A stretch of 45,474 nt of DNA, from contig NZ_JQIU01000008.1 of NCBI RefSeq assembly GCF_002379365.1, positions 1,621,185-1,666,658 on the forward strand, given 5' to 3'. Below, piece after piece: positions 2-20,616 of this stretch (positions are counted from its first letter, which is position 1; each line of letters begins with the position of its first letter). The DNA comes from Brachyspira sp. G79. Its GTDB lineage: Bacteria; Spirochaetota; Brachyspiria; Brachyspirales; Brachyspiraceae. Below the pieces are notes generated by a model. It saw only the letters and a program-made list of their open reading frames with translations. It did no database searches and was not told where the DNA came from. Made by a program: the position numbers and the translations under genes.

Positions 2-1027
2 TCTAACTTCTTAATAGAAGAACTTAAAATTAGAATAAAAGATTATAAACAAAAAATAGAAACTATATATTTGGGAGGAGGCACTCCTTCTGTATTGGGT
101 GCTGATTTATTAAAGTATTTATTAGATAATATATTAGATATTGTTTATAAACATAATGAAAATAAATATTTAATAAAAGAAATAACAATAGAATCTAATA
201 TAAATAACATAAATAATAAATACATTAATTTGCTTGAAAGTATAGAAAATATAAGGCTTTCACTAGGTATACAGACATTTAATGAAAAAAGTTTATCTAT
301 TATAAATAGACATACAAATAAAAAAGATATTATAAAATCACTTAAATTAATAAATAAATCTTCTTTAGAGAATATTTCTCTCGATTTTATATGCGGTCTT
401 CCTTTAAACTCAAAAACACAGATAAGAGATGATATATTATTTTCATTTGACCTTCTTCCAAAAATAAAGCATGCCTCTCTTTACTATTTGGAACTCACAG
501 AATCACTTAAAAATAAATGGGAAAAATTACTTCCAAGTGAAGAAGAATCAATCATTTATTATAAGCTAGCTTCTGATACATTATATAGTTTGGGATTAAA
601 ACGATACGAAGTGTCAAATTTTGCTTTTTCTAGTTATAGTTCTATTCATAACAGCAATTACTGGCTTATGAAAGATTATATAGGAATAGGAGTATCTGCT
701 TCAGGCTGTTATAATAATATAAGATATACGAATGTGAAAATGATTAATGATTATTTTAACTCTATATCTAAAAATCAGCTTGCAGAAAAAGAAAGAGAAT
801 ATTTAGATAAAGATACTAGAAAAAAAGAGTTTATATTCCTTTCACTGAGAACAGTAAAAGGAATAGACATAAACAAATATAATTGCATTTTCAATGAAGA
901 TTTTTATTTGAAACATAAAAAAACGATAAACAGCTATAGAGAATATTTTAATATATCCCCCAAATACTTATCTATAAAAAATTCTTATTTTAATTATGCT
1001 GATGAGATTAGTATATTACTGCTGTGA
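2..1027 (+). CDS. hemW: HemW-like radical SAM protein, 5' end outside window
   Basis: The reading frame is open to the left edge, so the true start lies upstream; the TTG at 71 is internal. The visible part begins just before the glycine-rich SAM-binding motif GGGTPS (base 74 on) and continues through RLSLGIQTF and the LDFICGLP block, as in the HemW/oxygen-independent coproporphyrinogen-oxidase-like family. The Cys cluster that binds the iron-sulfur cluster would lie outside the window and cannot be checked. HemW members are thought to be haem chaperones rather than true coproporphyrinogen dehydrogenases. The last 12 bases overlap the end of the convergent repressor gene. The family assignment is firm; the choice of HemW over a relative is based on general resemblance. 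Confidence 0.85.
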   Translation, partial: SNFLIEELKIRIKDYKQKIETIYLGGGTPSVLGADLLKYLLDNILDIVYKHNENKYLIKEITIESNINNINNKYINLLESIENIRLSLGIQTFNEKSLSIINRHTNKKDIIKSLKLINKSSLENISLDFICGLPLNSKTQIRDDILFSFDLLPKIKHASLYYLELTESLKNKWEKLLPSEEESIIYYKLASDTLYSLGLKRYEVSNFAFSSYSSIHNSNYWLMKDYIGIGVSASGCYNNIRYTNVKMINDYFNSISKNQLAEKEREYLDKDTRKKEFIFLSLRTVKGIDINKYNCIFNEDFYLKHKKTINSYREYFNISPKYLSIKNSYFNYADEISILLL

Positions 1028-1318
1028 TTTTATTAAAGATTCCTGAAAGTTTTTGTCGTTTATAAGATATTTATCAACTATTACTGCTAAAGCACTGTCT
1101 TCTTTTTTCAATTCTTTTGCTCCCCTTGTTATCGAACAAAGGCTTGCATTAAGATGTTTTGCTATTTCATACTGAGGCATTTTTTTCCTTAATAAAGTGA
1201 CTATCCTGAGCCTTTGCTGTATCATATCCTGCTCGTCCTTAGTAAAAAGTTCCCCTAAAAGCTTCTTAATAAACTCTTCATCTGTTTCTGTTGCTAGAAT
1301 ATGTGCTAAAAGTTCCAT
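1016..1318 (-). CDS. trpR: TrpR-family transcriptional repressor
   Basis: This is a 100-residue, all-helical protein of the size usual for Trp repressors. Residues 20-85 follow the TrpR/YerC pattern: LFTKDEQDMIQQRLRIV, then a helix-turn-helix with QYEIAKHLNASLCSITRG. The segment SITRGAKELKK matches the recognition-helix region of E. coli TrpR (ATITRGSNSLK). Known members bind L-tryptophan as corepressor and control tryptophan or aromatic genes. pheA and aroK lie about 2 kb away. A GGAG-type ribosome site precedes the ATG. A sigma70-like promoter with a dyad over the -10 box lies upstream, which suggests autoregulation. The ligand is inferred from the family; a YerC-type regulator without Trp binding is the alternative. 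Confidence 0.82.
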   Translation of the reverse strand: MELLAHILATETDEEFIKKLLGELFTKDEQDMIQQRLRIVTLLRKKMPQYEIAKHLNASLCSITRGAKELKKEDSALAVIVDKYLINDKNFQESLIKSQQ

Positions 1319-1387: not shown

Positions 1388-1628
1388 GTGAATTTTGTAT
1401 TATTACAGATAATAAAATATATTTTATTATTTTATAATGTATATTACAAGTATGTATAAATTACTGTTTATAAATAAAGGCATATTTATGAAAAAGACTA
1501 ATAAAAAAAATAATAATAGCAAAAAAAATAACTAAAAAAATAATCCACAAAAGAAAATGGTATTAATAATATTTTTATCATTATATTTATAATATTTATT
1601 ACAGTAATAACTACTATATATATATACC

Positions 1629-2075
1629 ATGAATAAAAAAAACAATAAAAATATAATAAAAAATATAAACGAAATAGATTCTTCAGGTCTTACAATAGTA
1701 ATGAAAGCACTCCTTAATGAAAATAATAATATAAATATTAATGATATAAAAAGACTTGTAAGAGAAAATAGAAAAAATATAGACTATAAAATAAGGGATA
1801 GTGAAAGCAAAACACTTTTAATGTATGCTGTATTTAACGGAAATACAGAAATAATAAAAGACATATCAAACTATGGAAACCTATTAGACGAAACTGATAA
1901 CAATGGAAGAACCGCTTTGCATTGGGCTGTTTATTATAATAAGTATGATGCTGTTGTTACATTAATAGAACTTGGTGCTAAAGATTACATAAAAGATAAT
2001 TATTCTCTCACGCCGATAGACATAGCACAATATGAAGGATATGGAGATATATACAAATACTTATCTTCATTATAG
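1629..2075 (+). CDS. Ankyrin-repeat protein with a broken N-terminal membrane segment
   Basis: The intact frame encodes 148 residues with about three ankyrin repeats. The clearest are around residues 62-90 (TLLMYAVFNGNTEI) and 95-125 (GRTALHWAVYYNKYDAVVTL). Ankyrin repeats mediate protein binding; the partner is unknown. The ATG at 1629 has no ribosome site. A better start with AAAGG lies at 1488 and opens an Asn/Lys-rich stretch that stops after 15 codons. Between the two, in other frames, is a hydrophobic stretch (IIFIIFITVITTIYIYH) that would be the membrane anchor. The original gene was probably 1488-2075, anchored in the membrane, and has lost its frame in A-rich tracts. Whether the remaining ORF is translated is uncertain. 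Confidence 0.65.
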   Translation: MNKKNNKNIIKNINEIDSSGLTIVMKALLNENNNININDIKRLVRENRKNIDYKIRDSESKTLLMYAVFNGNTEIIKDISNYGNLLDETDNNGRTALHWAVYYNKYDAVVTLIELGAKDYIKDNYSLTPIDIAQYEGYGDIYKYLSSL

Positions 2076-3190: not shown

Positions 3191-3234
3191 CTTATTACTA
3201 CAATAAGAAATATTTTATATTTAAGGATATTGTT

Positions 3235-4358
3235 ATGTTAGCTGAAGAATTACAGGAATTAAGAAAAGAAATTGATAGAATTGATAAACAAATAGTAAAT
3301 TTGATAGATGAGAGAATGAAAGTAAGTTTGAAAGTAGGGGAAACAAAAAAAAATATAATGCCCCTATATTTGATCCAAAAAGAGAAAAGGAAGTTATATC
3401 AAAAAAAATAGAACTTCTTGAAAATAAAGATTTATCATCATTAATAATAACCATATATAATGATATAATGTACACATCAAAACAGCTTCAGAAACATTTA
3501 ATTGATGAGAGTAGTAATAATAAAAAAGAAAATGGCAATAATAAAGAAAAAATAAAATATGATAAGGTGGTAGTTTATCAAGGAAGAGAAGGTGGAAACG
3601 GACATGAGGCTGCTTTAAAATTTTTTGGTGAAAATGCATGTCTCATAAAAAAAGCATATTTTAATGATGTGCTTGAAAGTATAAGAAATGGAGATAGTTA
3701 TTATGGAGTTTTACCTTTGGAAAATTCTTCTACTGGTATGGTTAATGAGGTTTTGGATATACTTGCTGATTATAACTGCAAAATTGTAGGGGAAATATAT
3801 TTACCTATAGAATACGGACTTATGGCTAAAAAGGGAAGCAGCATAAAAGATATTAAAAAAGTTATATCTCATCATCAGGCTTTGAAGCAGTGTTCTAATT
3901 TTATAAAAGAAAATGGTTTTGAAGAGATAACAGCATCAAATACTGCTGAGGCTGCTTTTATAGTCTCTAAAGGAGATGATAAAACTATTGCATCTATTTC
4001 AAATAAAAATGCTTGTAAGATTTATGATTTAGAAATGATTGAAGAAAATATTGAAAATATAAAAGGAAATACTACACGCTTTATAATAGTAGCTAATTAT
4101 GATAATGCTTTAAATAGCGGAAACAAAATGACTATGAGGTTTTTGCTTCCTCATGAAAACGGAAGTTTGGCTAATTCTCTTGATAAATTAAAAAGTTTTA
4201 ATTTAACTTCTATAGTAAGCCGTCCGCATAGTGACAGAAAATGGCAGTATTATTTTTATATTGATATGACTGGAGACTTTGATAAATATAGAGAAGAGTT
4301 TGAAGATTTTAAAAGAAGTGTGGAGAATTTGATAATATTGGGGCAGTATGATGAATAA
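3235..4358 (+). CDS. pheA: Chorismate mutase / prephenate dehydratase (P-protein), frame broken at an A9 run
   Basis: The product converts chorismate to prephenate and then phenylpyruvate, for phenylalanine synthesis. ATG 3235 follows AAGGA (3223-3227). The chorismate mutase domain begins LRKEIDRIDKQIVNLIDERM. The frame then stops at 3409 after 58 codons, while the continuation (YNAPIFDPKREKEVI) is in the -1 frame after nine As (3345-3353). Downstream come the prephenate dehydratase domain (LPLENSSTGMVNE; GNTTRF near its end) and a C-terminal ACT domain (GSLANSL, SRPHSDRKW), the usual phenylalanine-feedback site. A tenth A, or a -1 slip on A-AAA-AAA, restores one continuous protein. If unrepaired, translation could restart near 3468 and give the dehydratase part only. 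The gene overlaps aroK by 11 bases, indicating an operon. Confidence 0.82.
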
Positions 4359-4881
4359 TAATATAGATAATAAAATAATATTTATAATAGGTCTTCCGGG
4401 CTCTGGAAAAAGTGCTTTATCAAAACTTCTAGCAGAAAAATTAAATTATACTCTTTATGATATGGACTCACTTATAGAGAAAAAAGAAAATAAAACAATA
4501 ACTAATATTTTTTCTGAAAATGGAGAAGAATATTTTAGAAAAGTAGAGAGTAAAATTTTAGAGGAGCTTGCAGGCATGAATAATGTTGTAATATCCACTG
4601 GTGGAGGGATAGTACTTGCAGAAAAAAATAGAAATATTATGAAAGAAAAAGGACTTACTATTTTTATAGACAGAAATCCAGAAATTATACTTCAAAATAT
4701 AGATCCAAGAGAGCGTCCTTTGCTTGCGAAAGATAAAAATAAATTATTAGAGCTTTCAAAACAGAGGGATAGTTTATACAGAGAGAGTGCTGATGTAATA
4801 TTTACACATAACACTTGGGAAGATGATATTAATAGAACCTTTGAACAATTAGAATATGATTTAAAAAGTTTTATTAATTAA
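4348..4881 (+). CDS. aroK: Shikimate kinase
   Basis: The product phosphorylates shikimate at the 3-hydroxyl, the fifth step of the chorismate pathway, in the cytoplasm. The 177 residues are close to the usual 170-175. Visible motifs are the Walker A GLPGSGKS (residues 15-22), the substrate Asp in YDMDSLIE, STGGGIV (the glycine-rich substrate loop), and the lid arginine region ERPLL followed by RDSLYRE near the C-terminus. ATG codons at 4348 and 4351 both lie inside the end of pheA, so translation is probably coupled and the pair forms an aromatic amino-acid operon. There is no obvious terminator directly after the stop. Confidence 0.9.
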   Translation: MMNNNIDNKIIFIIGLPGSGKSALSKLLAEKLNYTLYDMDSLIEKKENKTITNIFSENGEEYFRKVESKILEELAGMNNVVISTGGGIVLAEKNRNIMKEKGLTIFIDRNPEIILQNIDPRERPLLAKDKNKLLELSKQRDSLYRESADVIFTHNTWEDDINRTFEQLEYDLKSFIN

Positions 4882-19364: not shown

Positions 19365-20616
19365 ATGAATTTATTGACAAATTCTAATGATAAACATGAC
19401 TTTTTAAAAACAGCATTGAAGTATAGTATAAAAGAAATGATGATATATTTATAGCAACTGCATTTTTTAATGATACAGAAATAATAAATAATGCCATATA
19501 AAAAATTGTAATATAAAAACTTATTGTAAGATTATTATTAGAAACCTCCATATAAAGATTAAAAGAATTATATAATAAAAAAATGTTCATATTAGATTTT
19601 TTACATCCGAAAGTTTTCATCCAAAACTGTATATATATTCGGCAATTCTGTAGCATTTATAGGTTCATCAAATTTAACTAAAAGCGGTATATTATCTAAT
19701 AAAGAAATAAATGTTTAAATAGATTCTAATAATATAATTTTTGATGATTTAATAAATTGTTTTTATGATTATTGGGAAGTGCTGAAGTAGTAAATGATAA
19801 TATAATAGAAAAATATTCAAAAATAGAAGAAGAATGTTATAATGTGGATATACAAATAAAAAAACTTTAGACAAAAATTAAAAGAAGAAATAGGCGATTT
19901 TAAATTTGATAATATTATAACTATTAATAATACTAAAAAAACAAAAAACTATCATATATTTCAGATTTTAAAAGAAAATATCAAATATTTTTGGACTGTT
20001 ATAAAAGATTAAGCAAAATGTATAAATCATCTCTTATAAAACTTAAAATTAATAGAAAGTACAATAATTTACCATTAAAAATAGAAATAGATCAGTTTTT
20101 AAACTGGATAAAAGAAATAAAAATAATAGAAGAAAAAACTTATACAAAAATTAATGATGATAATATAGAACTAAAGTTACAATATCTTATTAAAGAAGAT
20201 TATTATAATTATAACATTGAATATAAATATATTACAAATTATAACAGATGTAGAGATACTTTAAAAGAAAATAATATAAATACAGTATCTTATGATAAAT
20301 TATATAAAGCTTTATTATTTATTAATGCTTTTAACGATAGAAGACGCTTTTTTTCAAATAATTCTATGAAAGAAGAATTTTTGAATACAAATAATGGTTT
20401 AGAAAATATAAAAAGAATAATTTATTATATAATGATAAACCGTATGAAATAAAAATGGCTAACTGCATATATAATAAAGATTTAAAATTAAAAGTTTTTG
20501 CTCAAAGCTGTGTCAAAGAGTTATTTGGAGTTATGAGTAACGATGAAAATATTCCTTTATGTAATGATAGAATATTTAAATCTATGGAATATCTAGGATT
20601 TGGTAATTTGAAATAA
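19365..20616 (+). pseudogene. Decayed phospholipase-D-like nuclease domain protein
   Basis: ATG 19365 opens LTNSNDKHDFLKTALKYSI. After a shift come NDDIFIATAFFNDTEIINN, then SFHPKLYIY and, in another frame, VAFIGSSNLTKSGILSNKE. The HxK followed by GSSNLT is the PLD-superfamily catalytic layout seen in restriction-type and helicase-linked PLD nucleases. The longest intact piece is 19991-20452 (153 residues, coiled and Lys/Tyr-rich). After a last shift come ELFGVMSNDENIPLCNDRIF and EYLGFGNLK, stop at 20614. At least four lesions are needed to explain it, so it is a true pseudogene. Restriction-like or anti-phage nuclease function is an inference. It sits 34 bases from a repeat element. Confidence 0.68.

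Follow-up and report, generated by a model that had tools for sequence, protein, structure and literature searches.

The window, i.e., the whole stretch of 45,474 nucleotides analysed, comes from Brachyspira sp. G79 and carries a pheA gene distributed over two reading frames (Table 1). The locus shares domain order and sequence with the bifunctional chorismate mutase-prephenate dehydratase (PheA, P-protein; Pfam CM_2 and PDT): CM_2 is followed by PDT, although across two frames. The zero-frame ORF begins with ATG at 3235 and is closed by a stop codon at 3409–3411, and the A9 tract inside it is preceded by C and followed by T. The −1 frame is open from 3312 to the stop codon ending at 4358, with no stop across the 335 codons counted from 3351. 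An antisense ORF of 80 aa (3233–3475, minus strand) overlaps the pheA tract and is almost certainly due to chance.

Table 1. Features of the pheA locus (positions in the window)
Feature	Position	Strand	Basis
Zero-frame start of pheA (58 aa) with the first half of the chorismate mutase domain (CM_2)	3235..3411	+	CM_2 1-47/80, E 8e-11 (Pfam profile search)
A9 tract at which the frame changes; A6-G-A3 in the nearest relatives has one base more	3345..3353	+	sequence and alignment
pheA 3′ part, −1 frame: remaining CM domain, linker, full prephenate dehydratase domain, C-terminal part	3351..4358	+	CM_2 34-80, PDT 1-178/181, E 7e-57 (profile search)
GUAGGGG...CCCCUAU hairpin with A9 in the loop	3333..3372	+	fold z −2.5; unconserved, probably incidental
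Shikimate kinase (aroK), overlaps the end of pheA	4348..4881	+	SKI E 4e-44

When a −1 step at 3351 joins the two frames, the product has 374 residues (375 letters including the stop). Either a −1 slip or an extra A in the mRNA restores GETKKKYNAP, the family sequence of the intact relatives. The PDT-side part shares 95–96% identity with the unbroken proteins of the two nearest species. An earlier note on this DNA had described a pheA split at A9 by a −1 frame change, with a 58-residue product unless a slip on A-AAA-AAA yields the intact protein, and with the remaining domains intact. This description holds in every part: the CM_2 halves lie in two frames around the tract, the short ORF has the predicted length, the −1 step leads to the family sequence and no stop interrupts the domains that follow.

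The locus was compared with 25 other Brachyspira species; the window's species is represented by one genome (3.29 Mb, 14 scaffolds). CM_2 is unbroken in all 25 species, and in 24 of them it lies in a frame of 366–451 residues, a length that accommodates both domains in one frame, which is not the case here. PheA of the sister species is a single-frame protein of about 370–390 aa, whereas here one base is missing inside the CM domain. In fourteen species ACAAAAAAGAAA is found in phase at the site (ACA AAA AAG AAA TAT or a TAT-like form), i.e., A6-G-A3 after C; the remaining species have forms such as ACT AAG AAA AAA AAT. The longest uninterrupted A run at this site in any aligned relative is 8, and the A9 tract is absent from all other aligned Brachyspira species. 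Measured against the sister species, the frame change at A9 is real, and the tract is one base shorter than in the nearest relatives. The missing base may be the G itself, or AAG may have changed to AAA with subsequent loss of one A. The earlier note had named ten As in other strains beforehand as the observation that would speak for a consensus error or a strain-specific mutation; across species the longer stretch was indeed found, in the form A6-G-A3 and not A10. In G010, which has the smallest genome of the genus, CM_2 lies only in an 86-aa frame (G010:C14:51631-51867); this species may encode its mutase apart from PDT, or the gene may be broken there too. The A9 junction was also looked for in viral contigs and was not found in them.

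The earlier note had offered slippage on a canonical heptamer or a deletion as explanations of the split. The heptamer X_XXY_YYZ is present in phase, but this is unavoidable, since nine consecutive As always contain A_AAA_AAA in each of the three phases; its presence is therefore no evidence for recoding, and in tracts of nine or more As a "canonical heptamer" carries no evidential weight alone. Programmed frameshifting with a stimulator was considered and rejected. The 100 bases 3′ of the tract fold no better than shuffled sequences (z −0.37; 67 of 200 shuffles as good; pseudoknots outside the test). The hairpin that spans the tract folds better (3 of 200 shuffles as good) and is specific to this sequence: in several relatives the left arm reads GGAG or GGTG, which breaks the stem, so the hairpin is not kept. 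Neither the tract, the hairpin nor any downstream structure is conserved among the relatives, and the same is true of the two-frame arrangement. An Rfam search upstream of and at the site gave no credible RNA element, only two sub-threshold matches. Nothing in these comparisons indicates programmed recoding, which fails on both conservation and the stimulator. Thus, the programmed half of the earlier proposal is not supported, and the deletion (or miscount) half is supported by sister species that are one base longer, in phase and devoid of A9.

Profile searches of the window's genome revealed one copy of PDT and one of CM_2 (the latter as two pieces); no second mutase or dehydratase and no AroH-type mutase were found in it. 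In this genome pheA alone covers the first two steps towards phenylalanine. Chorismate synthase (377 aa), TyrA-type prephenate dehydrogenase (290 aa) and shikimate kinase have open frames, so that, this single base excepted, the pathway is preserved, and the broken enzyme should serve the synthesis of both phenylalanine and tyrosine. Such a pathway would be seen if the base was lost recently, if it was miscounted or if the gene is rescued, but not with a long-dead gene. Substitutions on the window branch, polarised with genome G011, comprise 9 nonsynonymous and 17 synonymous changes in the −1-frame part (816 and 189 sites, respectively; ratio about 0.12). For the nearest closed genome the branch counts are 4 and 25, and the two branches do not differ significantly (Fisher p 0.11). 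The ratio near 0.12 shows that the −1 frame was constrained during most of the window branch. Such constraint is equally expected from rescue by slippage.

The best explanation (probability about 0.9) is an ordinary bifunctional pheA with one base missing from an A-rich Lys-Lys-Lys stretch, by recent loss or by miscount. Since both domains lie in an unbroken frame in 24 of 25 sister species, the break points to an isolated mutation or a sequencing miscount and not to a new decoding signal. The break is a real feature of the given sequence and ordinary in kind, a metabolic gene put out of frame by one base within an A tract. There is nearly an even chance that recent replication slippage removed the base from this strain or species, and about the same chance that the cell has the base and only the assembled consensus lacks it. 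With a real loss, the main product would be a useless 58-residue fragment. A little full-length enzyme could arise when the polymerase adds an A to the mRNA or the ribosome slips by −1 on A9, neither of them programmed, so that incidental leakiness may rescue some activity, and some prephenate dehydratase without the mutase could come from a downstream restart. For annotation, the choice decides whether the strain is called auxotrophic for phenylalanine and tyrosine, the gene being the only chorismate mutase found.

Miscount and mutation were weighed by setting 800 kb of the window's genome against 1.2 Mb from a closed relative (G017). Among 328 orthologous ORFs, 17 frame-breaking events flanked by conserved codons on both sides were found in 14 genes of the window's genome. 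In the reverse direction six events were counted, three of which were judged genuine by eye; the others are products of breaks in the window's genome, antisense ORFs or 5′ extensions. The excess (17 vs. 3) corresponds to p about 0.003. Most events in the window's genome alter a short A or T run by one base. A/T runs of at least 7 are shorter in it than in the closed relative 39 times and longer 17 times (p 0.005), while runs of 5–6 are without length bias. The same 800 kb (G000:C8:1420001-2220000) includes 44 N gaps of 258–5164 bases, 45,229 Ns in total, and the window is exactly one gap-free piece with an N gap at either side. The gaps, the excess and the short runs fit a draft with some homopolymer undercalls. 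In favour of a real mutation, the excess comprises insertions as well as deletions, and several genes carry more than one lesion; the broken genes that were read look, by eye, accessory in function and as a set are slightly less conserved than the rest (p 0.04). Seven other coding-strand A9 tracts inside ORFs of the genome leave their frames open; miscalling of A9 is therefore not general in it. The gapped scaffold, the frame-break excess and the slightly short A/T runs make a miscount about as likely as a real recent mutation.

Two rival readings were weighed. The gene could be maintained by recoding, A9 being kept because A addition by RNA polymerase or a −1 ribosomal slip on A_AAA_AAA supplies enough PheA. 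Both slips lead to exactly the family peptide, the downstream frame is intact and constrained, and a tract of about nine or more A/T with an out-of-frame but constrained downstream part is what maintained transcriptional slippage would leave. Transcription insertions increase with A/T run length (PMC5574713), and precedents are available. In Blochmannia, frameshifted genes occur in poly-A tracts, for which PMC3017870 proposes slippage or cites it as shown. As here, AT-rich genomes are concerned in Blochmannia and Buchnera, and the frame downstream of the one-base shift in the A tract is intact; some of those shifts are common to species or populations, with slippage demonstrated according to work cited in that paper, whereas the present case concerns one genome known from sequence. 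In Citrobacter rodentium tssM1, as here, an A tract precedes a stop and an inserted A would restore the full protein, but that tract is A11 with about 20–25% transcriptional frameshifting (PMC4256274), against A9 in pheA. On the other side, a reporter study in E. coli found that the bacterial RNA polymerase slips rarely on poly-A: insertion reached 0.39% on an A7 run, and in one assay slippage of the poly-A reporter was below detection (PMC6260861). The tract occurs in a single species and is interrupted by G in relatives; tract and shift are not common to several lineages among the aligned species. With the heptamer automatic in A9 and neither a downstream structure nor a conserved hairpin, maintained recoding is considered quite improbable.

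Even less probable is that the species lives with a shifted single-copy pheA and depends on polymerase or ribosome slippage at A9 for its phenylalanine and tyrosine; if this were true, we know of no earlier such case in a host-associated spirochaete. It is scarcely credible that the gene is becoming two, with a non-functional 58-aa piece and a monofunctional prephenate dehydratase of 296 aa translated from ATG 3468. The ORF 3468–4358 does contain the whole PDT domain, but by eye no convincing ribosome-binding site precedes it, and the CM remnant in the −1 frame is still open and constrained. Moreover, since no other chorismate mutase was found in the genome, prephenate would not be made under such an arrangement.

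Some other genes of the window were noted in passing. At least three indels disrupt a 417-codon gene (19365–20613, plus strand) whose counterpart in the closed relative is intact; the window's copy is a genuine pseudogene, and by eye its protein looks like a phospholipase-D-like or helicase-associated factor. In an ankyrin-repeat gene (1488–2074, plus strand) the N-terminal hydrophobic stretch of the relative is out of frame, and the window ORF starts at 1629 without it. A literature search on phenylalanine synthesis in Brachyspira returned nothing useful. A TrpR-family regulator (1016–1318, minus strand; Pfam Trp_repressor, E 2e-17) lies about 1.9 kb before pheA and is a possible candidate regulator of aromatic genes.
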